From: Prochlorococcus sp. AG-418-G23
GTDB lineage: Bacteria; Cyanobacteriota; Cyanobacteriia; PCC-6307; Cyanobiaceae
NCBI GenBank assembly: GCA_003214195.1
Contig: QCLY01000008.1
Coordinates: forward strand, 1-45,785
Direction: 5' to 3'
DNA: 45,785 bases
Shown here: in pieces, positions 4,119 to 43,121 of the stretch
Layout of the letters: each line of letters starts with the position of its first letter
Position numbering within the stretch: position 1 is the first letter of the stretch
The notes under the pieces: model-generated
What the model was told of the DNA's origin: nothing
Databases searched by the model: none
What the model saw: only the letters and a program-made list of their open reading frames with translations
Program-made: the position numbers and the translations under genes

Positions 4119-5921
4119 TTAATAGTTAGCGCCGGTCTTGCGGTGATGCACTGCTGTTAGACTATCGGATTTTAATATATTACCGTTTAATACTTCGGCA
4201 TATATCACCCAATGATCTCCACATTCCATTCTCTCTTTTACAGAAGCATCTAACCATGCTAAGGATTCAGGAATGATTATCTGTTCATTAGGAGTTAAGT
4301 CAATATTTAAACCTTCGAATCTATCTTCTCCTGGTGCAAAGGGTTTTGTGAATCTTTTTAACGGTTCTTTAAAATTGTTTTCACTTAAAATATTTAATGC
4401 AAATGAATCTCCAATTTGAAGGAGAGATTCTACCGATCTATCTTTTGCAACTGCAATACTTAATCCCGGAGGAGAAAAACTTGCTTGACTAACCCAAGAT
4501 GCAAGCATAGCCCCTTTAATATTATTCTCATCTTTTCCTTTAGATGCAGTCAGAACACAAAGTGAGCCAATTACTCTTCCAAGAGCCTGTAGCTTTGGAT
4601 CCGTTTTACTCGTAATCATTCCTGTATCTGATTTTCTGGGTTTTTTCTTAGCCTTTTTTATAATTTTTCTTCCAAAGTGAGTTCCTATTTCTTCTAACTC
4701 TTTAATCTTTGGTTTATTTGGACTGAATTTAATTCTTATAGGATCAAAACTAAATTTGAAGCCACCATCCTTCAATTTTGATTCAAGTAAATCTATTGCT
4801 TCGCCACTCCAACCAAAACTACCAAAAATTCCTACTGGTTTATCCCTATTACCCTCTGATAATAATGTTCCTAGTGCACTTACTATTGGAGTTGGGGCAT
4901 GACCTCCTAGTGTCGGAGATCCGATTAAATATCCATCAGCATTTTGGATAGATTTTATAAGTGCATCATTTGATGTAAATTCACAATTAATACTTTCAAC
5001 TTCTACTGAAGTTCTATTTATACCTTTAGCTAATGCATCACCTATTGAGGCGGTATTTCCATATGCACTTGCATATATCAGAGCGATTTTAGGATTATTT
5101 GTTGAGAGATTTTCGCCCCATCTAATGTAGTCATTTAAAAAGCTCTTTAAGCTATATTCGATCGCGGGACCGTGTAACGGCGCAATAGTTTTAATATCGT
5201 AATCTGCAATTTTTTCAGTTATTGATACTACTTGATTAGACATAGGTGCCATTAAACAATCATAAAAATGTTTCCTATCAATTTCTGTACTAACTCGATT
5301 TGTTTCGGACCAATCTTCAGATGTAATGTGAGCCGAGAAAATTTTTTCACTTAGAAGTATTTCTTGACTATGTTCATAAATTATCAAACTCCCAGGCCAA
5401 CGTGCTGTTGGGATAGGAATCAACTCTAGTGAAAAGTTATCTAATTTTAAATTAAGTTCTTTTTTGATTATGTTTATTTCAGGTAATTGAATTTCAACAA
5501 AGTTTTCTAAGGTAGGATTTCTTTGATTCCAAAGTTCGCTAATTAGTTTATAACCTGGATTAGAGCAAGTAATAGTAGTGTTTTGAAATTGGGTACTTAT
5601 ATTTTTGATAGTTTCAATAATTTGGGGATTAATATGTCCAGATATGACGTTAATTTTTTTTAATTTATTTTGATTAAAAAAGTTAGATATTATCTCATTA
5701 AGTGAATTTAAATATTGCTTTTCAGGTGGATAAATAATAAAAAGATCTTCATTATTTATTATTAAAAAAGTATTGAAAGAAGTTCCTTTTTCTAGATTGA
5801 ATTCTAGTTCAAATCTTTCTTTATTGTGGTCTAAGAATCGGATACAAGTAAAATTTTCGGTAATTTCAAATTGTGCTAAGTTTTGATTATTTAATGATAA
5901 GGTTGTATTAATTTCACTCAT
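4119..5921 (-). CDS. flv1: Class C flavodiiron protein with degenerate diiron site (Flv1 type)
   Basis: A 600-residue three-domain protein: metallo-beta-lactamase-like domain (about 1-255), flavodoxin domain (about 275-420, starting IALIYASAYGNTASIGDALAKG) and C-terminal flavin reductase domain (about 440-600, ending HHRKTGANY). The usual diiron ligand motif HxExDH is replaced: the equivalent segment reads SGHINPQII (H96, N98, Q100), and the later HWPD is RWPG. That matches the non-canonical Flv1-type partner, which in cyanobacteria works with Flv3 in light-driven reduction of O2 to water downstream of photosystem I. Seventeen nt separate it from flv3 upstream, so the two are probably one operon. 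Assignment as Flv1 rests on the missing ligands and on pairing with an intact Flv3. Confidence 0.88.
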   Translation of the reverse strand: MSEINTTLSLNNQNLAQFEITENFTCIRFLDHNKERFELEFNLEKGTSFNTFLIINNEDLFIIYPPEKQYLNSLNEIISNFFNQNKLKKINVISGHINPQIIETIKNISTQFQNTTITCSNPGYKLISELWNQRNPTLENFVEIQLPEINIIKKELNLKLDNFSLELIPIPTARWPGSLIIYEHSQEILLSEKIFSAHITSEDWSETNRVSTEIDRKHFYDCLMAPMSNQVVSITEKIADYDIKTIAPLHGPAIEYSLKSFLNDYIRWGENLSTNNPKIALIYASAYGNTASIGDALAKGINRTSVEVESINCEFTSNDALIKSIQNADGYLIGSPTLGGHAPTPIVSALGTLLSEGNRDKPVGIFGSFGWSGEAIDLLESKLKDGGFKFSFDPIRIKFSPNKPKIKELEEIGTHFGRKIIKKAKKKPRKSDTGMITSKTDPKLQALGRVIGSLCVLTASKGKDENNIKGAMLASWVSQASFSPPGLSIAVAKDRSVESLLQIGDSFALNILSENNFKEPLKRFTKPFAPGEDRFEGLNIDLTPNEQIIIPESLAWLDASVKERMECGDHWVIYAEVLNGNILKSDSLTAVHHRKTGANY

Positions 5922-5938
5922 TTTTTTAAAATTATTTT

Positions 5939-7714
5939 CTAATAGTGATTAGCAACTTTCCTGTGATGAACTGCTGTTTTGCATGATAAATCGGAGACAT
6001 TACCATTTTCGACAATTCCGTAAATTATCCAATGATCTGGAGTTTCTAATCTGGAGCTCACTTTACAATCTAAAAAGGCGAGTGAATCTGAGAGGACTGG
6101 TCCACCTTCTGCGATGTTGCTAATTATATCTACATCTGCAAATCTATCAGCTCCAGGAGCAAATCTTTTTAAAAAATGCCTGAACATTTTTTGATAGTTA
6201 TCTTCTCTCAAGATATTAACAACAAATCCTTTGCCAACTTGCATATATGATTCAATAGCTCTATCTTTTGCTACTGCAACTGTAATACCTGGTGGAGAAA
6301 AACTTGCTTGACTAACCCAACTTGCTACCATCGCACTTTGTCTAAATGTTGAGTCTTCTCCTTGGCTTGCTGTAACTACATATAATCCTCCACTTAACCT
6401 ACCTAAAGCTTTATCTAAATTTGAATCAAGGCTCTTCATAGAGGCAATATTTTTCTTTTTATTGATCAATTGACCCAGGTCAGTTCCAGCTTCTTCGAAT
6501 TGTTGATAAACAATGGGATCTGGAATATTTTTAACTCTTAAAGGAGAGAAAGCTTCTTTTTGACCAAGTTCTCTTAATTTATATGCTAAAGAATCTATTG
6601 GTTCATCATTTCCACCAAATGCATCATAGACAGCTGTAAATTGTTTTGATTTTAGTGCTGCAAATAAAGTACCAAGGGATTCTTTTAATTCATTATCTGA
6701 ATCTACTGGCCATGTGGGAATGACTACTGCTTTAGATTCAGAAATTAAACTTGTTAATTCTTGGGGGTCAGATGATCTTAGATCAATTAATTGAACCTGT
6801 GCATCTGCTTTACTAATTCCATGAGATATCGCTTGACTTAGTCGATCACAATAACCATAATCGCTTATATAGCAGACCGATACAAAATCATTACCTTTGC
6901 TTTTATTGCTACTCCATTCTTGATATTTTTCTTTCCAAAAATTGACTTGATTATGAAGTAAGGGCCCATGACCTACGGCTAATGTTTTTAATTCAGGTAG
7001 CTTATCTATCCTTTTAATTGCCTGCAGAACGCTCCTTGCGTTTGGACCCATTAGGCAATCATAATAAAATCGGAAATCATCATATATTTCTTTTTGATCA
7101 GTGTCAAAAAATTCTTCAGAACAATAATGGAGTCCAAATGCATCGCATGTGTAAAGAACATGAGTGCTATGGTCATATGAAAAAATTGTGTCTGGCCAAT
7201 GTAAATTTGGTGCACTTATAAATTCAATATTATGTTCTAAACCGCTATTAGGATTAGTTCCGAGATTTAAAAACTCTCCACTCTTAACTTCTAGACGCTT
7301 AAAGGGAATATGTATTTGGTCTTCAATAAATTTAAGAGCTAATTTTGATCCTACTACTGTGATATTTTGGTTTAATTCTAAAAGATTACCTATTAAACCA
7401 GAATGATCAGGTTCTGTATGGCTTGTAATTAGATAATCTACGTCTTGTGGATTTATCTTTTTCAGTAATTCTTCAAACCATAACTCTTGGAACTTAGCGT
7501 GACTAGTATCAATAATTGCTATTTTTTCGCCTTTAATTATAAAACTATTGTAAGTAGTTCCATTTCTTAAGCCAAATTCAATATCAAATCTACTGCGATC
7601 CCAATCTAAAGATCTAATAGCACATGAATCCTCAGCAAAGTTTTGAGATTGAACAGTCAACTTGTTATTTATTTGTGCCAATTTTGAATTACTTGTCTGG
7701 GCAGAGGCTAGCAT
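5939..7714 (-). CDS. flv3: Class C flavodiiron protein with intact diiron ligands (Flv3 type)
   Basis: A 591-residue A-type flavoprotein with the same three domains as its downstream neighbour. Canonical diiron ligands are present: H99-x-E101-x-D103-H104 (SHTEPDHSG), H172 in LHWPD, D191 in YTCDAFG and the His of VGHGPLLHN. The flavodoxin domain starts near VCYISDYGYCDRLSQAI, and the C-terminal flavin reductase domain ends HHRKVANHY. In cyanobacteria Flv1 and Flv3 form a heteromeric NAD(P)H- or ferredoxin-dependent O2 reductase that protects photosystem I in changing light. It is first in the operon and diverges from alaS across a 120-bp gap that must hold its promoter. The ATG start (MLASAQTS) gives the usual length. 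Confidence 0.9.
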   Translation of the reverse strand: MLASAQTSNSKLAQINNKLTVQSQNFAEDSCAIRSLDWDRSRFDIEFGLRNGTTYNSFIIKGEKIAIIDTSHAKFQELWFEELLKKINPQDVDYLITSHTEPDHSGLIGNLLELNQNITVVGSKLALKFIEDQIHIPFKRLEVKSGEFLNLGTNPNSGLEHNIEFISAPNLHWPDTIFSYDHSTHVLYTCDAFGLHYCSEEFFDTDQKEIYDDFRFYYDCLMGPNARSVLQAIKRIDKLPELKTLAVGHGPLLHNQVNFWKEKYQEWSSNKSKGNDFVSVCYISDYGYCDRLSQAISHGISKADAQVQLIDLRSSDPQELTSLISESKAVVIPTWPVDSDNELKESLGTLFAALKSKQFTAVYDAFGGNDEPIDSLAYKLRELGQKEAFSPLRVKNIPDPIVYQQFEEAGTDLGQLINKKKNIASMKSLDSNLDKALGRLSGGLYVVTASQGEDSTFRQSAMVASWVSQASFSPPGITVAVAKDRAIESYMQVGKGFVVNILREDNYQKMFRHFLKRFAPGADRFADVDIISNIAEGGPVLSDSLAFLDCKVSSRLETPDHWIIYGIVENGNVSDLSCKTAVHHRKVANHY

Positions 7715-16365: not shown

Positions 16366-17604
16366 TTGAGCCAGTTAGATTCCAATTGGTCGTTAGTTGA
16401 TGACAGTAAGGTTACACCCAAGGGGTTCCTTTTTGCAGGCATATCTGCTGGATTAAAAGCTTCTAATAAAAAAGATTTAGCACTAATACTTGCTCCAGAA
16501 GGAAGTATTTTTAGTGGGATGTTTACCCAATCAATAGTTCGTGCTTCTTGTGTGGATATTTGTGAGGAAAGAATTAAAACAACTTCAGGTTTTGTGCGCG
16601 CAATACTAATTAATTCTGGACAAGCAAATGCATGCACAGGAAATCTTGGAATTCAACATTTTCAAATTGCTACAGGAAAGATTGCGGAACTTTTAGGAAT
16701 AAAAGAAGAAGAAGTTTTAATGTGCTCAACTGGTGTAATTGGTGTTCCAATACAAATAGATGATTTAGTAAAAAATTTACCGAATTTAGTTAATGATTTA
16801 AAGTGTAATAATTTTCAGAATGCAGCAGAAGCAATTTTAACTACTGATTTGACCTTGAAAACAGTCCTAATAGAGACCGTTATTCAAGGTAGAAAGATAA
16901 AAATAGCAGGAATTGCAAAAGGTTCAGGAATGATTTATCCCAATATGGCTACAATGCTTGCTTTTTTAACCTGTGATGCGGCTATTCAAAAAGAAGAATG
17001 GGATAAAATGATTTCTATTGCTGTTAAAAAATCTTTTAATGCAATATCAGTTGATGGAGAGACAAGCACAAATGATTCATTCGTTGCAATAAATGCAGGA
17101 GAGAAAATTGATAAAAGATTTTATCCAACTATCCAAAAAGGTATTGATATTGTGTGTCAGATTTTGGCAAAAAATATTGCAAGGGATGGAGAAGGAGCAA
17201 ATTGTTTATTAGAAGTTTCAGTTCAAGGAGCAAAAAATACTGATGATGCAATTATGGTTGCTAAATCTATTTGTAATTCCTCATTAGTAAAAACTGCGAT
17301 ACATGGCTGTGATCCTAATTGGGGCAGAATTATTTCTGCTGCAGGTAATTCTGGAGTTAAATTCTGTTTAAATGACTTTGACTTGTATATTGGTAAACAT
17401 CAAATTTTGGAAAATGGCAAATTAAAGCAATATGACTCGAATAAAGTTTCAAACTATATTAGATCCAAAATGAAAGGTAGGTATTTAGTCGATGATATTG
17501 TTGAAATTATGATTAATCTAAATTCTGGCCAATCCACAGGAACAGCTTGGGGATGCGATCTTTCTAAAAAGTATGTTGAAATAAATAGTGAATATACTAC
17601 ATAA
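16366..17604 (+). CDS. argJ: Bifunctional ornithine acetyltransferase / N-acetylglutamate synthase
   Basis: Recycles the acetyl group from N-acetylornithine to glutamate in arginine synthesis. The 412-residue precursor contains the autoprocessing site MATML, with T196 as the nucleophile that becomes the N-terminus of the beta subunit, preceded by AKGSGMIYPN. Other family blocks are TGVIGVPI and HGCDPNWGRIISAAGNSG. The start appears to be TTG at 16366: an in-frame TGA lies at 16345-16347 and no ATG intervenes. The last 11 codons, stop included, are part of a 89-nt segment repeated downstream at 18488, so this gene's 3' end looks like an integration target. It marks the left edge of the accessory island. 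Confidence 0.95.
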   Translation: MSQLDSNWSLVDDSKVTPKGFLFAGISAGLKASNKKDLALILAPEGSIFSGMFTQSIVRASCVDICEERIKTTSGFVRAILINSGQANACTGNLGIQHFQIATGKIAELLGIKEEEVLMCSTGVIGVPIQIDDLVKNLPNLVNDLKCNNFQNAAEAILTTDLTLKTVLIETVIQGRKIKIAGIAKGSGMIYPNMATMLAFLTCDAAIQKEEWDKMISIAVKKSFNAISVDGETSTNDSFVAINAGEKIDKRFYPTIQKGIDIVCQILAKNIARDGEGANCLLEVSVQGAKNTDDAIMVAKSICNSSLVKTAIHGCDPNWGRIISAAGNSGVKFCLNDFDLYIGKHQILENGKLKQYDSNKVSNYIRSKMKGRYLVDDIVEIMINLNSGQSTGTAWGCDLSKKYVEINSEYTT

Positions 17605-17660
17605 GTGCAAATCCATTGCAGGGCAATAGATTACAGAGATAGGAAAAACCATATGACACC
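17572..17660 (+). repeat. Putative attachment site copy A, covering the argJ 3' end
   Basis: First copy of an 89-nt direct repeat. It begins at a TAT codon 11 codons from the end of argJ (YVEINSEYTT-stop), continues through a 23-bp imperfect palindrome (17610-17632), and ends in a TGACACC motif 21 nt past the palindrome. About 73 of 89 positions match copy B without gaps (hand count). Interpretation as an att site is inference. Confidence 0.65.
17610..17632. repeat. 23-bp imperfect palindrome, candidate recombinase core site (copy A)
   Basis: Two 10-bp arms, AATCCATTGC and GCAATAGATT, flank the spacer AGG; the arms are inverted repeats with one mismatch. It starts 6 nt after the argJ stop codon. 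The same palindrome with spacer AGA occurs at 18526-18548. No T tract follows, so it does not look like an ordinary terminator. Confidence 0.6.
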
Positions 17661-17668
17661 AATATGAC
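17653..17668 (+). repeat. ATGACACC direct repeat motif (left copy)
   Basis: ATGACACCAATATGAC occurs here and again exactly at 18425-18440. Shorter forms (ATGACAC or ATGACAG) are at 18364 and 18569. The spaced repeats could be recombinase arm sites or an iteron-like array. Confidence 0.45.
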
Positions 17669-17687
17669 GCTTTATATGCGAAATTTA

Positions 17688-18149
17688 CTATTTTTCAATT
17701 AATTTTTTATGCTTTTCAATAAAGGGTTGAACAAGTTTTTTAAAATCATCATCAAGAAATTCTTTCTCAATATTACGGCAAGAGATATTTTCTCCCATTG
17801 ATTGAATACAATCATCTGCATACATTTTATTAAACAATTTATTGAGTTGATACTCTTTATTCGATTTATACTCCTCATAAATTGTCTTAAAGTAAGGATT
17901 AGTAATTGATTCTGAATTATTTTCTAGAATATTATTGTAATTTAATAAATTATCGCACTTTGTTTTTACTCCTTTATTACAGTAACTTGCGTCATATTTA
18001 AATAAAGCGATTCGTACAACATGAGTTATTACACCAGCACCTATAAATAGCAATATTGCACCACCAGCAGTTTTTAAAATTAACTGCATAATGTTCAATT
18101 GATCTACAGAATTTTTTACCTTTTTTATCTTTTTATTTTTCTTGGCCAT
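17688..18149 (-). CDS. Membrane-anchored Cys-containing protein in island, function unknown
   Basis: A 153-residue protein with a very basic N-terminus (MAKKNKKIKKVKN), one membrane segment at about residues 25-50 (ILKTAGGAILLFIGAGVITHVV), then a hydrophilic C-terminal domain with four cysteines in two pairs (YCNKGVKTKCDN and DDCIQSMGENISCRN). By the positive-inside rule the C-terminal domain is outside the cytoplasm, and the paired cysteines may form disulfides. I do not recognise a family. It is the only gene between att-like copies A and B, on the opposite strand to argJ. An ATG at 18149 is preferred over the TTG three bases upstream. Confidence 0.5.
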   Translation of the reverse strand: MAKKNKKIKKVKNSVDQLNIMQLILKTAGGAILLFIGAGVITHVVRIALFKYDASYCNKGVKTKCDNLLNYNNILENNSESITNPYFKTIYEEYKSNKEYQLNKLFNKMYADDCIQSMGENISCRNIEKEFLDDDFKKLVQPFIEKHKKLIEK

Positions 18150-18424
18150 CAATCATATTGAAATTGAATATAAGAATTATAAATTATTGAAGATGTTTCT
18201 ATTATATTAATGCAATTGGGTTACTTTAAAAAAGAAATATAAGAATGGTAAGGAAAATTTTTAATTTTTAAAATGATATTTATGATTTTTTGTCAATTGG
18301 ATTTAAAAGGTAGTTCCTCGTTATAAAAATTCCGCCTAATTCATAATGATTATTTTGATTCATATGACACTTTTATAACACTAGTATAGTGATACCAATA
18401 CTTCTGCAGAATTTATACAGGTTT

Positions 18425-18440
18425 ATGACACCAATATGAC
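18425..18440 (+). repeat. ATGACACC direct repeat motif (right copy)
   Basis: Exact 16-bp match to 17653-17668, immediately followed by a further ACCAAC so that TATGACACCAA occurs in tandem. It lies about 50 bp before att-like copy B. Confidence 0.45.
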
Positions 18441-18487
18441 ACCAACTTAATCCTTGAGATCTATTGGTATGATTGAATTTTATACTA

Positions 18488-18576
18488 TATGTCTTTATTA
18501 ATAGCGAATATACTACATAAGTCTAAATCCATTGCAGAGCAATAGATTACAGGGATATTCAAAACTATATGACAGT
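18488..18576 (+). repeat. Putative attachment site copy B (duplicated argJ tail)
   Basis: Second copy of the 89-nt repeat. In the argJ frame it reads Y V F I N S E Y T T stop, against Y V E I N S E Y T T stop in argJ. Most coding differences are third-position changes (GTT/GTC, ATA/ATT, AGT/AGC), except GAA to TTT. It keeps the palindrome 6 nt after the stop and the TGACA motif 21 nt further. There is no open frame leading into it, so it is a gene tail without a gene. Confidence 0.65.
18526..18548. repeat. 23-bp imperfect palindrome, candidate recombinase core site (copy B)
   Basis: Arms identical to those at 17610-17632; only the middle spacer base differs (AGA instead of AGG). Confidence 0.6.
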
Positions 18577-18651: not shown

Positions 18652-19218
18652 ATGATAAAAAATTTAAATCTTGGTAAGTCATTAATTTATATTTTTGTTC
18701 TTTGTGCGAGCGTTGGTTTAAATCAATTAAGATCTGAAGAATTTTTTGGATATGAAACATATGAACCAATCACAAATTATTTTCCATTGAGAATTTTAAG
18801 GGAAAAATATGACCATACTGAAACTCTTGGAGGATTTTATACTGTTGATATTACGAATTTCTTAAAACGGAATCAAAAATCTCCTTATTTTGAAACCTAT
18901 GAACTATCAATTGATAATAATAACTATATTCATGAGGTTGTCTTGCGCAAAGAATATAAAACTATGGAAACATGTCAAAAAATAAGCAATACTTTGGTCA
19001 ATAAATTATCTGAAAAATATAATGTTACTTTTATAAATGCAGACGATACATATCCTCAATTTAAATCGCAAAGAAGGGAGGCAAATACTAAATATAACCA
19101 TAGGATTAGTATCAATTGCAATTATTACTTTGCTAATGATTCTGTAGAGATGTGGTCATTTATAGCGACTCCTGAAGTGGATGAAGCAATTACTCAATTC
19201 TATGAAAAAGGTTTCTAA
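18652..19218 (+). CDS. Predicted secreted protein in island, function unknown
   Basis: A 188-residue protein with a likely Sec signal peptide: basic MIKNLNLGKS, hydrophobic LIYIFVLCASVGLNQL (about 11-26) and a possible cleavage region before SEEFFGYE. The mature part is rich in Y, N and charged residues and has few cysteines (one in METCQKI, one in ISINCNYYF), which might pair. I do not recognise a domain. It is on the same strand as the DnaB-like gene, 102 nt upstream of it, between att-like copies B and C. The A+T-rich codon use resembles the host, so there is no strong compositional sign of recent transfer. Confidence 0.5.
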   Translation: MIKNLNLGKSLIYIFVLCASVGLNQLRSEEFFGYETYEPITNYFPLRILREKYDHTETLGGFYTVDITNFLKRNQKSPYFETYELSIDNNNYIHEVVLRKEYKTMETCQKISNTLVNKLSEKYNVTFINADDTYPQFKSQRREANTKYNHRISINCNYYFANDSVEMWSFIATPEVDEAITQFYEKGF

Positions 19219-19300: not shown

Positions 19301-19324
19301 ATGAGTTTCCCTAAAAAAAAATGA
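19301..19324 (+). other. Possible 7-codon leader ORF and A9 tract overlapping the DnaB-like start
   Basis: ATG AGT TTC CCT followed by three AAA codons and TGA encodes MSFPKKK. Its TGA overlaps the ATG of the helicase gene in ATGA. The run of nine A (19313-19321) means that one extra A would fuse the leader in frame to the helicase (MSFPKKK-MIKEN). Confidence 0.3.
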
Positions 19325-20214
19325 TTAAGGAAAATATTCTTGAACGCACAAAAGTTATTGGAGCAATTTTGAGTACTAAATTTGAAGAGATTGAAAGTCG
19401 TGCTTTAGGTAAAAGTGAATCTGGAATTCCAGTATCTTTTTATGATTATGATGCTTTAACCCAAGGTTTACCAAGGGGAGGATTGATTGTATTGGGAGGA
19501 AGACCTGCAATGGGTAAGACATCATTGTCTTTGAACATGGCTTTAAACGTTTCTAAGAAACAGAATCTTCCCGTTTGCCTATTTCATTTGGAGATAAGTC
19601 AAGAACAGATATCGAATAGATTTTTATCAATGGAATTAGGTATAGAATCAGGCAGATTAAGAACTGGCAGATTACAACTTGATGAATGGTCTTTATTAAG
19701 TGAGGGTATTAATTCTTTGAGCAAATTACCTTTATACATAACAGACCAACCATTAAGTTCAATACAAGAGATGCAATCAATCTGTCAAAAGATTAAAGAG
19801 CAATCTGAAAAAAATAGTTTGGGACTTGTAATTCTAGATTATGTCCAATTACTTGATTACCTGCCTATATCAGATGTATCAAATAGAGAAGAATACTTAT
19901 TGAAATTAACGAAGAGTCTTAAAAGGATGGCAGAGGAACTGAATGTCCCTGTAATTATTATTTCTCAACTTAGTAAGGATGTAGAGAAAAGAAAAAACAA
20001 GAGACCAATGTTGAGTGATATGAGAGACTTTGAACCTCTTGAAGTATATTCAGATATTATTACCATGATTTATAGAGATGAATATTATAATCCAGAAACT
20101 GAAGATAGAGGTATTACTGAAATTATTACCTGTAAACATAGGAACGGACCTTTAGGAACAGTTAAATTATTATTTGAACCGCAATTTACAAGGTATAGAA
20201 ATCTTTCTGATTAA
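19321..20214 (+). CDS. DnaB-like helicase/ATPase lacking the N-terminal domain
   Basis: A 297-residue protein matching the C-terminal RecA-like domain of replicative helicase DnaB: GIPVSFYDYDALTQGLP, Walker A GGRPAMGKTS (59-68), catalytic-type E91 in FHLEIS, DYVQLL Walker B (173-178), the VIIISQLSK sensor strand and KHRNGPLGTVKL (272-283). The N-terminal primase-interacting domain of cellular DnaB (about 450 residues in all) is missing. The usual GSIEQDADI region is changed to EPLEVYSDI. Short DnaB-type ATPases are common in phages and plasmids, so a role in replication or recombination of a mobile element is plausible. The ATG directly follows an A run and overlaps a 7-codon ORF's stop (ATGA). 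It lies between att-like copies B and C. Confidence 0.82.
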   Translation: MIKENILERTKVIGAILSTKFEEIESRALGKSESGIPVSFYDYDALTQGLPRGGLIVLGGRPAMGKTSLSLNMALNVSKKQNLPVCLFHLEISQEQISNRFLSMELGIESGRLRTGRLQLDEWSLLSEGINSLSKLPLYITDQPLSSIQEMQSICQKIKEQSEKNSLGLVILDYVQLLDYLPISDVSNREEYLLKLTKSLKRMAEELNVPVIIISQLSKDVEKRKNKRPMLSDMRDFEPLEVYSDIITMIYRDEYYNPETEDRGITEIITCKHRNGPLGTVKLLFEPQFTRYRNLSD

Positions 20215-20261: not shown

Positions 20262-20302
20262 CTAGACAAAGCAATTAAGTTAAGTGATTAAAATGAAAAA
20301 TA

Positions 20303-20405
20303 AAACACTAATTTAATTCTTTAGATTTATTGCTATCAAAGCGTTTATCTTTGTATTCTTGTATTGATAGAGAATGTACTACTTAAGTTTTAGTAAATCT
20401 ATTGG
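20303..20405 (+). repeat. Degenerate third att-like copy C
   Basis: 84 nt from about 20305 align without gaps to the 84 nt ending at 18522 in front of and through copy B (about 59 of 84 matches by hand, many C/T differences). The gene-tail part reads Y S C I D R E C T T stop against Y V E I N S E Y T T stop of argJ. Only the left palindrome arm (AATCTATTG) is recognisable. It overlaps the stop codon of the minus-strand membrane protein at 20379. Confidence 0.45.
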
Positions 20406-20621
20406 TAGATATTCGTTTATATAAAGAAACAGTATTGTTAAAGTTCCAATTACAGAACCTATAAAACCTCCAAAAAAATTAACTATAAACTTTGATTTTG
20501 TAATTATTTTTTGTTCCTTTTTGCTTTCCTCTAAATCAGGTGATTCAACTACCTTTAGGCGCTGATTGGTTGTTGGTTGTTTAAGCTGTTGGTGGCGGAT
20601 GAGGGCTTCGAAATCAGGCAT
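20379..20621 (-). CDS. Small membrane protein overlapping parA, function unknown
   Basis: An 80-residue protein: hydrophilic N-terminal half (MPDFEALIRHQQLKQPTTNQ, then an acidic/basic linker) and one membrane segment near residues 45-70 (FIVNFFGGFIGSVIGTLTILFLYI). Its ATG is 67 nt inside the 3' end of the ParA-like gene in another frame, so the two are probably translationally coupled. ParA partner proteins are often encoded right after parA; this could be a membrane-located partner, but that is only a positional argument. Its stop lies inside att-like copy C. Confidence 0.55.
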   Translation of the reverse strand: MPDFEALIRHQQLKQPTTNQRLKVVESPDLEESKKEQKIITKSKFIVNFFGGFIGSVIGTLTILFLYINEYLPIDLLKLK

Positions 20622-21226
20622 GGAATTTGTGAGGCAATTTTACAATAAGCAGACCAGCCCGTCATTCGACGAGGATCTGATCTGCCTAAATCGTCTATAG
20701 CATTGAATACAGCATTTCCAGTGGCTTCTGCTTTATCAAACGCTGAAAGTAACGGTATAAATGTATCAAAAACATATAAGCCAAAATTTTCTAGAGCTGT
20801 TTTGGCTTGTTGAGCTGCTTTTTGCTGTCTAAAATCAACTTTGACTATCAATACTGCATGGTTAACTTTTAAGTTGCTTAATAAATTAGCTAGTTCAACA
20901 GTTAACTCTACTGATCTTGCTTTTGCAGTGGTAGGTAAGATAACTAAATCTGAACCATATGCTAAGTGTTTAAGTTCTTCTTGGTCACTGCTAGCCTGCC
21001 CATCAGTTATTACGATATCTGATGATCTTGATGCTTTCGCAGCTGAACTGACTGGGAAAACTGGAAAGGGAAGATTGCCTCTTGATGAGTATGCTAAAGC
21101 AGATCTATTCTTGTCAGCATCGACTACGCAAACTTTTTTACCTTCAGAATGCCAAACACTAGCAAGGTGGATAGTTGTGCAGGTCTTAGCCACACCTCCT
21201 TTTTGCCCGCAAACGGTAATGAACAA
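20555..21226 (-). CDS. Orphan ParA/MinD-like ATPase
   Basis: A 223-residue P-loop ATPase of the ParA superfamily. It has the deviant Walker A K9-G-G-V-A-K14-T (QKGGVAKT), VVDADKN (35-40) and VILPTTAKARSVEL (about 105-118). ParA proteins position plasmids, chromosomes or large complexes on the nucleoid; in cyanobacteria a relative (McdA) positions carboxysomes. No ParB-like gene is adjacent; instead an overlapping small membrane protein follows. The start is TTG, immediately after a run of 12 A with no recognisable ribosome binding site. The gene is visibly richer in G and C than its neighbours, which fits transfer. The cargo is unknown. Confidence 0.83.
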   Translation of the reverse strand: MFITVCGQKGGVAKTCTTIHLASVWHSEGKKVCVVDADKNRSALAYSSRGNLPFPVFPVSSAAKASRSSDIVITDGQASSDQEELKHLAYGSDLVILPTTAKARSVELTVELANLLSNLKVNHAVLIVKVDFRQQKAAQQAKTALENFGLYVFDTFIPLLSAFDKAEATGNAVFNAIDDLGRSDPRRMTGWSAYCKIASQIPCLISKPSSATNSLNNQQPISA

Positions 21227-22485: not shown

Positions 22486-22647
22486 TTTGTAATTTGAGTT
22501 TTTAATAAGATAAATTAATCTCAAATTAATTTTCTCAGTATTTATACTTAAAAAATTGAAAAATAGTTTTTTAATACAAGCAATTGCAGCAATATTTACA
22601 AAATAATAAATTATCTACTACAACTTCTTAGTTATTTTAAAGAAAGT

Positions 22648-31749: not shown

Positions 31750-31774
31750 TGCAGTCACCCTTGAATACATCAGA

Positions 31775-41904: not shown

Positions 41905-43121
41905 TAATTCTCATTTAAAAGTTTATCAAGCAAATCCCATTTATCTTTTGAAATGGGAATAAATGAAATTATTTCTTGAAAGTAAGAACTTAATTGTAGT
42001 TTACTTGCTTCTGTTAATGTGATCCCTCTTGTTCGCATATAAAAAAGTTCTTCTTCATTTAATTGCGAAATTGTAGCTCCATGTTTGCATTTGACATCAT
42101 CAGCAATTATTTCTAATTGAGGTTTGGTATCTATTTGTGCAAGCTTTGATAAAAGTAAATTTCTGCTTAATTGGGAAGCATCAGTTCTCTGGGCAATTTT
42201 CGGAACTATTATTGAACCTTCAAATATTGCATGTGATTCATCATCAGCAAGTGATTTATTAATTTGATCTAGAAATCCATTTGGGCCATTAAATTCTATT
42301 TTTGTGTAGGTTGAAATTTGCTCATCTTTTTTTGTTATTTGCATACCTTTGATATTTGTTTTAGCGTTTCCTTCAGATTGCATAATACTAATTTCAAATC
42401 TCGCGTAATTGAATTTGAAGTGTAAAGATCCTAAGTTGTATTCACTATTTTTTTGTTGAATTACATTGAGAGAATTTAATAGATTGGATCTGTTTTCACC
42501 GTAAGAAACAACACCATGATTTACGGAACTATTTTCTTTCAAACAAAAGAAAGTTGATTGAGATAATGAAGAGTTTTCTTTACCAAGATTTACTTGTAAT
42601 AATTCAACATCACAATTCTTTTCTAAAAATATTACAAGGGTTTTTGCGTTTAAGGAATTACTTGATGCATGACTAAAAATTTCAATAGGAGGAATTTTTG
42701 ATCCATTTATTTTTAGTCCCAAAATATTATTTTTACAACTTAAAGACAGATTTAGTAAGTCACTCCAATTTTCGTTTTCCTTAAAAAAATATATCTGTTC
42801 CTTGATATATTTTTGTAATTCATCCTCACTTAATTGCTGTATTGAATAATTTCTCTCTATTAATTTAGTTTCGCAATTCTCTCCAATTATTAATCTAATA
42901 GTACTTTTTGAATTTTTTGGATATGGAATATCAAATTTTGAATCTTTTTCATTAACTGAGTAATCTAAAAAGTTTGAAAATTTTGATTTATTTGAAAGTC
43001 TCCATAGTTCACTTTTAGGATTAGGGAGAGGGCTTGATTGTAATTTATGAAGACAGATTTTTTGTATTTCTGTTAGATTTTCATCTATTTTATTAGTTTT
43101 TATTTTTTCAATAATTTCCAT
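41904..43121 (-). CDS. sufD: Fe-S cluster assembly protein SufD
   Basis: Scaffold partner of SufB in the SufBC2D complex. The 405-residue protein has the family's C-terminal beta-helix core with SQLSRNLLLSKLAQIDTKPQLEI (landmark DTKPQLEI) and the conserved DDVKCKHGATISQLNEEELFYMRTRGI (landmark CKHGAT). The N-terminal third is divergent, as usual. It begins 4 nt after the sufC stop and overlaps sufS by one base. Confidence 0.94.
   Translation of the reverse strand: MEIIEKIKTNKIDENLTEIQKICLHKLQSSPLPNPKSELWRLSNKSKFSNFLDYSVNEKDSKFDIPYPKNSKSTIRLIIGENCETKLIERNYSIQQLSEDELQKYIKEQIYFFKENENWSDLLNLSLSCKNNILGLKINGSKIPPIEIFSHASSNSLNAKTLVIFLEKNCDVELLQVNLGKENSSLSQSTFFCLKENSSVNHGVVSYGENRSNLLNSLNVIQQKNSEYNLGSLHFKFNYARFEISIMQSEGNAKTNIKGMQITKKDEQISTYTKIEFNGPNGFLDQINKSLADDESHAIFEGSIIVPKIAQRTDASQLSRNLLLSKLAQIDTKPQLEIIADDVKCKHGATISQLNEEELFYMRTRGITLTEASKLQLSSYFQEIISFIPISKDKWDLLDKLLNEN

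Follow-up and report, generated by a model that had tools for sequence, protein, structure and literature searches.

What kind of element leaves a second copy of the end of a biosynthetic gene a short way downstream of that gene? This question is raised by a 45,785-nt stretch of Prochlorococcus sp. AG-418-G23 (contig QCLY01000008.1; hereafter the window), where the 3' end of argJ recurs. To our knowledge, plasmids and prophages are few in streamlined Prochlorococcus. How genes are swapped in these genomes is an open question, and tycheposons at tRNA genes, reportedly described by Hackl and colleagues in 2023, are one answer. With a probability of about 0.72, we read the argJ locus of the window as two tandem, integrase-less mobile cassettes that entered an attachment site shared by argJ and a convergent 80-aa gene, o80, and that are moved by rare helper elements.

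The repeat described in the initial annotation was borne out: positions 17572-17660 and 18488-18576 were identical at 73/89 ungapped positions (84% over 87 nt by repeat search), whereas the same 89-mer, matched without gaps against 200 second-order Markov windows, never scored above 48/89. As had also been noted, copy B still codes for the argJ tail (YVFINSEYTT-stop vs YVEINSEYTT-stop in argJ) and no gene runs into it, since no listed open reading frame (ORF) of at least 60 aa overlaps it and its neighbours lie at 17688-18152 (-) and 18652-19218 (+). The 89 nt had been described as the last 11 argJ codons with the stop plus 56 nt downstream. The argJ-like part is a core of ~21 nt that is shared with other strains; the rest is element end. 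The ~56 nt after the core are the elements' own left end and are repeated because both window elements share an end class. Two other claims had to be revised. A single element had been proposed, but the window has two in tandem, of 0.92 and 1.87 kb. The right neighbour had been given as an aldo/keto reductase gene; instead, o80 and a parA-like gene adjoin directly and the reductase follows them. The features are listed below by window coordinates; in what follows, L numbers denote fetched loci and G numbers genomes of the genus, and HMM stands for hidden Markov model.

16366..17604, + strand: argJ, the target gene, 412 aa (PF01960, E 7.1e-131; 80 relatives); its 3' end is the left attachment site
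17584..17604, + strand: core copy A (left junction, attL), AATAGTGAATATACTACATAA, the last argJ codons and stop; the crossover would lie in its first 8 bases
17584..18499: element 1, 916 bp, between cores A and B; no recombinase gene detected (integrase HMMs against reading frames)
17649..17670, + strand: left arm-type pair of element 1, 11-bp direct repeats CCATATGACAC CAATATGACGC
17688..18152, - strand: cargo ORF of element 1, 154 aa, between the two repeat copies; no Pfam match
18361..18443, + strand: right arm-type repeats of element 1 (18361-18382 and 18422-18443), similar to the left pair
18500..18520, + strand: core copy B (internal junction), AATAGCGAATATACTACATAA
18500..20365: element 2, 1866 bp; no recombinase gene detected (integrase HMMs)
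18652..19218, + strand: cargo ORF of element 2, 188 aa; no Pfam match
19321..20214, + strand: cargo with a DnaB-type helicase C-terminal domain, 297 aa (PF03796, 6.2e-80)
20300..20317, + strand: right arm-like repeat of element 2, ATAAAACACTAATTTAAT, read by eye; class seen in L066, L073 and L170
20366..20386, + strand: core copy C (right junction, attR), decayed, GATAGAGAATGTACTACTTAA, at the 3' end of the convergent o80; TACTTAA is the host half
20379..20621, - strand: o80, convergent 80-aa gene with its stop inside the core
20555..21226, - strand: ParA/MinD-like gene, the right chromosomal anchor (PF01656, 6.3e-13), present in 77/80 loci

Neither a Pfam scan nor integrase HMMs run on reading frames detected a recombinase in either window element. 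There is no tRNA gene at the site (17.5-20.4 kb); a transfer-messenger RNA at 22623 and a tRNA-Leu at 31773 lie elsewhere. The left end of element 2 is of the ATGACA class and its right end resembles the AAAACACTA class and, given these unlike ends, element 2 is probably composite or decayed. L073 and L111 have homologues 93% identical to its DnaB-type protein in their argJ arrays.

The site was compared between strains in 80 argJ loci, which were the best tblastn matches to the window argJ in Prochlorococcus and picocyanobacterial records; they are not a random sample and overlap in strains with our G genomes. Seventy-seven also contain the downstream parA-like gene and three do not. The site was empty in 38 of the 77, with 169-178 nt from the argJ stop to the parA end and an 8-nt overlap of argJ and o80 in 38/38. 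It was occupied in the other 39, where the argJ-to-parA interval ranged from 389 to 9215 nt (2954 nt in the window), of which ~172 nt is chromosomal, and where the cargo (~0.2-9.0 kb) differed. The initial annotation had suggested setting empty against differently filled sites and had named as the adverse outcome the same genes and both copies everywhere with no empty site; the 38 empty and 39 variously filled loci agree with insertion. They also agree with its proposal of a protein gene, instead of a tRNA gene, as the target.

Occupied loci consist of one to a few modules, delimited by GARTAYACNACNTRR cores where these are intact, and some modules are common to several loci in different combinations. 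Another 20 argJ loci from the G genomes, partly of the same strains, gave the same picture and included the most crowded array, L167, with five cores and four modules. The regular expression for the core demands an intact EYTT-stop. The conservation of internal cores is thus partly built in, decayed ones are missed and a long element may hide one. In a pattern scan, the exact core was found in 126/200 genus genomes and a reversed control pattern in none. Among the core matches listed, the places compared by eye with argJ were all at argJ except for one in G042, which is explained by an inversion. In that genome (C1:30000-69000; L327, L328), a ~20-kb segment that reaches from argJ back to a homologue of window 103 has the opposite orientation; one breakpoint lies inside the argJ array, with cores at 42082 and 40630 on the minus strand and at 63187 on the plus strand.

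The point at which strands switch was located by base counts at 38 empty sites, 40 left junctions (39 loci and the window), 16 internal junctions and 40 right junctions, the last being found by matching the 3' end of o80. Positions are given from the last base of the stop. Left of -21, left junctions match empty argJ, whereas right and internal junctions differ; from -6 onward, right junctions agree with the empty site and left junctions depart from it. The base at -6 was not T in 0/38 empty sites, 29/40 attL and 0/40 attR. A stop other than TAA was seen in 2/38 empty sites vs 23/40 attL (p 4.5e-7), and GAG at -12 in 1/38 vs 10/40 (p 0.007). These switches place the crossover in or at AATAGYGA, so that argJ receives its last codons and its stop from the element. 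The element side also largely retains the left motif TATGTNNNNAT, with T at -28 in 16/16 internal and 35/40 right junctions. INSEYTT was unchanged in all 38 empty sites and all 40 attL, and the position of the o80 stop was the same in 38/38 empty loci and 39/40 right junctions. In the predicted proteins, neither the argJ nor the o80 product is altered, with the element supplying the end of argJ and the chromosome retaining that of o80. The earlier idea of an attachment site that restores the 3' end of its target gene therefore holds, since element left ends rebuild the last argJ codons with silent changes.

Beyond the core, the left ends of elements contain direct repeats at a spacing of 11 bp, the sequence of which is class-specific. 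Left ends at least 85% alike without gaps were removed from an initial 92, leaving 69. In these, lag 11 gave z = 18.2 against single-base shuffles, compared to values between -2.0 and 3.6 for other lags from 8 to 21, and 42/69 had at least 7/8 matches at this lag. The left arm pair is met again at the right end of the same element. For 57 elements no shorter than 400 bp, picked for a good left pair, the mean match was 16.6/22 vs 13.6 in permuted data, with 0/10,000 permutations as high. Arm pairs are often found at fixed distances (+45/-98, +68/-117 and +88/-128). The arm motif of the window class, ATRACACYAATATRACA, had 24 matches in 16/200 genomes and all 24 were at argJ. Six elements of the set are 148-274 bp long; one in L181 (G041), directly after argJ, is gene-free, ~151 bp, and has both ends and three tandem 11-bp repeats. 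P'1-P'3 of phage lambda are arm-type integrase sites, and the 11-bp repeats may likewise be bound by a cognate integrase through its arm-binding domain.

Cargo was found in both orientations. Pfam, NCBIfam and PADLOC were applied to samples of the cargo ORFs. YadA-anchor surface proteins make up a cluster of 17/117 cargo ORFs, three scanned members of which match. Other cargo in the samples includes TPR proteins, a thiamine-binding protein, a cobalamin adenosyltransferase-like protein, PEBP, LemA/DUF3137, a Z1 protein, an HNH homing endonuclease and DUF4379 proteins, and DNA methylases are also present, two of them C5 enzymes. In 42 pairs of loci sharing an element, element identity was more than 2 points above that of argJ in 13, mostly involving L167 or L168; L081 and L168, for example, share an element at 95% and argJ at 87%.

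Most cassettes encode no recombinase and so would depend on helpers. We collected 90 elements, 82 of them distinct after removal of exact duplicates only; this set still contains related elements, which are not independent. The 552 reading frames of at least 50 aa in the 82 elements were searched with HMMs of three local integrase families and of a 389-aa chromosomal recombinase. An integrase was identified in two elements, L083 and L070, and both group with family B, a divergent family of tyrosine integrases. A third argJ integrase, in G067, was found with a family-B profile over 229 genus genomes. It matches the integrase SAM-like domain and, far below cut-off, the XerA_Arch model. The L070 and G067 elements also encode serine resolvase-domain genes. 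Six aligned family-B members, other than that of G067, have invariant R, K, R-H and Y, which we read as the putative catalytic residues. The L083 and L070 integrases had no NCBIfam match, and a PDB sequence search gave chance-level matches only for L083 (lambda Int, E 0.58) and none for L070. The core pattern had no match in IMG/VR. When the L070 arm unit was used as a query at both ends of 76 elements of at least 400 bp, it scored 41/44 in L036 and 37 in L062, both without an integrase, 37 in L070 itself and a median of 25. This fits a shared integrase.

Family-B matches, some partial, were present in 24/229 genomes, and 12 loci away from argJ were viewed. Elements with a family-B integrase follow a 591-aa flavodiiron-type gene in L279, L320, L321, L323, L324 and L326 and guaA in L280, L282, L286 and L319; in L282 and L286, the guaA stop is followed by 11-bp direct repeats. 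The integrase lies at trmD in L325 and near trmD in L322. One gene each of the flavodiiron, guaA and trmD kind was confirmed by HMM, and no tRNA was found in the fetched stretches of these loci. In L279, a 5.8-kb element that has CACTATTA at each end separates the two genes of a flavodiiron pair; this 8-base core was seen by eye, and a scripted search found no shared word of at least 9 bases. The window has an empty flavodiiron site at 5921-5939, where two paralogous genes lie 17 bp apart.

We propose that argJ and the convergent o80 together make up the attachment site, where their 3' ends overlap. Within AATAGYGA, where the sequences switch, strands would be swapped by a lambda-type tyrosine recombinase, after which the left end of the element would give argJ its last codons and stop and the o80 end would stay chromosomal. 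The matched, 11-bp-spaced arm repeats would be recognised by a cognate integrase. This enzyme could come from rare elements of 4.7-9 kb that target argJ and encode family-B integrases, either in trans or through tandem accretion in cis. Further elements may join at existing cores and so produce arrays, in which up to four modules were seen.

Several points weigh against this scheme, in which the movement of the cassettes is deduced from sequence comparison. In some loci, the 8-bp crossover stretch differs between attL and attR (AATAGC vs AACTCG), which is odd for a strict overlap, and exact TACTACTTAAG is present in just 26/40 right junctions. An element's own right end ranked first in just 3/57 elements, partly because many elements share a class. 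Of the 42 pairs, 10 were within 2 points and 19 had argJ more alike than the element; this mixed result suggests transfer between lineages for some modules only. The integrase-bearing G067 element has no clear L070-type arm pair in the expected places (12 and 14/22), with two 12-bp-spaced repeat copies seen by eye further in, and the arm class of the window itself had no integrase among those found. These two findings make the link to helpers suggestive, not general. Genome G000, which is 70% complete, had no PF00589 match, and an AlphaFold model of the L083 integrase was unusable (predicted local distance difference test score, pLDDT, 34). There is, in our estimate, an even chance that the scheme extends to cassette exchange at argJ throughout the genus. 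In this case, a large pool of integrase-less cassettes with cognate arms, each of one to few genes (surface adhesins, restriction-modification, DnaB, vitamin-related), would be moved by rare helpers that target the 3' ends of protein genes (argJ, flavodiiron, guaA, trmD), giving an element class beside tycheposons that is integron-like without a resident integrase.

Another possible source of the integrase is the host itself. The 389-aa chromosomal tyrosine recombinase (PF00589) would then act in trans and run an integron-like platform in place of helpers, and most arrays are indeed linked to no other recombinase. Many of the genus genomes searched encode it, and in the four that were viewed (e.g. 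L184:3482-4651) it is flanked by cobO-type and ferrochelatase genes. It weakly matches the XerA_Arch "recombinase/integron integrase" model, under the cut-off (38 vs 220 bits). We consider this explanation unlikely, as homologues in 138/151 family genomes and 53/59 genera make an Xer-like housekeeping role likelier and one conserved enzyme poorly explains the many classes of arm repeat. The protein, which had no match in phage records, is possibly the Xer enzyme of picocyanobacteria. Slightly less likely again is that integrases encoded by tycheposons or phages mobilise the cassettes and that argJ is just another target. Of ten other long integrases viewed (413-434 aa), six belong to a single family, and for two of these a tRNA-Ser lies within the stretch that was fetched. 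However, the HMM of this family matched no reading frame of the 82 distinct elements, the window arm motif was at argJ only in the 200 genomes, and the L083 and L070 integrases fall in family B, with that of L083 unmatched in 50,697 phage records and in IMG/VR.

The locus could also have arisen without site-specific mobility, by a local duplication of the argJ tail and spread of the cargo by homologous recombination through the flanks. These are conserved, so allelic replacement could spread whole arrays, and the 19/42 pairs in which argJ is more alike than the shared element point the same way. Still, this is improbable in view of the empty sites, the exact boundaries around many unrelated cargos and the matched end repeats, and it is hard to reconcile with a single switch point at the junctions. 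We give almost no credence to an artefact of assembly or single-cell amplification: most of the genomes are draft assemblies and many are single-cell, but arrays are also present in the MIT 9314 record (L099) and in genomes of 1-5 contigs (G106, G108, G171 and G182).

Among known systems, the behaviour of the argJ cassettes, as we interpret it, is closest to that of cis-mobilizable elements (CIMEs) and microCIMEs and to additive islands, not to tycheposons. In the sections we draw on, CIMEs, for example in Streptococcus salivarius, are integrase-less, are bounded by attL and attR, accrete in tandem in the 3' ends of protein genes (rpmG, rpsI, fda and rplL), and measure 1.2-13 kb with genes and 130-220 bp in their gene-free micro forms (PMC7563491, PMC5704250). 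The argJ elements likewise keep attL and attR without an integrase and have gene-free forms of 148-274 bp. Tandem accretion with an integrase-bearing element is seen in the L070 and G067 arrays, not in the window. Unlike the CIME sites in those sections, the argJ target is the overlap of two convergent genes. CIMEs are described there as decayed conjugative or mobilizable elements (PMC7563491, PMC5704250), whereas the argJ cassettes have one to few genes, many cargos and many arm classes. No conjugation family was among the Pfam matches listed and none was noticed in helpers, though no search was aimed at conjugation genes. In the additive flexible genomic island fGI-2 of Methylophilaceae, as presented in the part of the source used here, cassettes of 330 bp-42 kb and variable content have direct repeats of the target gene end (PMC10872708). 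The argJ cassettes also lie between such repeats; theirs derive from a protein gene and those of fGI-2 from the end of tRNA-Lys (PMC10872708). At argJ, moreover, the crossover was mapped and arm-like repeats are present.

Tycheposons, as given in PMC10872708, integrate at tRNA genes, are 4-200 kb long and have a recombinase. The argJ elements share with them a Prochlorococcus host, a tyrosine recombinase and flexible-gene cargo. They differ in target, which is argJ in 39 occupied loci with no tRNA gene at the window site, and in size, being 0.15-9 kb (0.92 and 1.87 kb in the window), with 8/82 distinct elements above 4 kb. No recombinase was detected in the window elements, and the two of 82 that have one have it from outside the tRNA-Ser-associated family. 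With target, size and recombinase all different, the suggestion that an argJ-targeting class would be distinct from tycheposons stands against that summary of them. The preprint PMC10187409, in the portion consulted, places a picocyanobacterial integrase element near tRNA-Phe or tRNA-Cys, often with a small serine recombinase. Common to both are a divergent tyrosine integrase in Prochlorococcus/Synechococcus and the serine recombinase, as in L070 and G067; the family-B loci viewed are instead at argJ, flavodiiron, guaA or trmD genes, with the integrase families compared by description only.

Integron arrays consist of tandem small cassettes at one primary site, with a recombinase that is not carried by the cassette and a crossover at GTTRRRY. 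The arrangement at argJ is similar, with the recombinase outside the cassette. It differs in the core, AATAGYGARTAYACNACNTRR, which lacks GTTRRRY, in the arm repeats and in cargo in both orientations, and no integron integrase was identified among those of L083, L070 and G067 and the 389-aa protein, the last two of which match XerA_Arch far under its cut-off. The prophages e14 and phage 21 rebuild the 3' end of icd. As with them, the argJ element supplies silently changed codons of a protein-gene tail; they are single autonomous phages, unlike the cassette arrays.

Beside tycheposons, argJ arrays would be a second and finer-grained route of gene swapping, in which one or few genes for surface structure, DNA defence or metabolism are exchanged at one predictable locus. 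The site is short, is filled in about half of the sampled loci and is present in MIT 9314, so that excision and transfer lend themselves to tests by polymerase chain reaction and read mapping. Pairs of integrase and arms might also serve as genetic tools. In the open-licence literature, we found no paper joining argJ with Prochlorococcus genomic islands and none on argJ together with an integrase and an integration site; the original tycheposon paper might mention argJ.

Two of the fetched loci had irregular argJ genes. In L171 (G142 C12), a second, partial argJ (residues 261-412) and coaE fragments lie upstream of the full argJ, as the result of a rearrangement or a single-cell chimera. In L318 (G067 C5), argJ is broken into two reading frames of 175 and 246 aa by a sequencing error or a frameshift.

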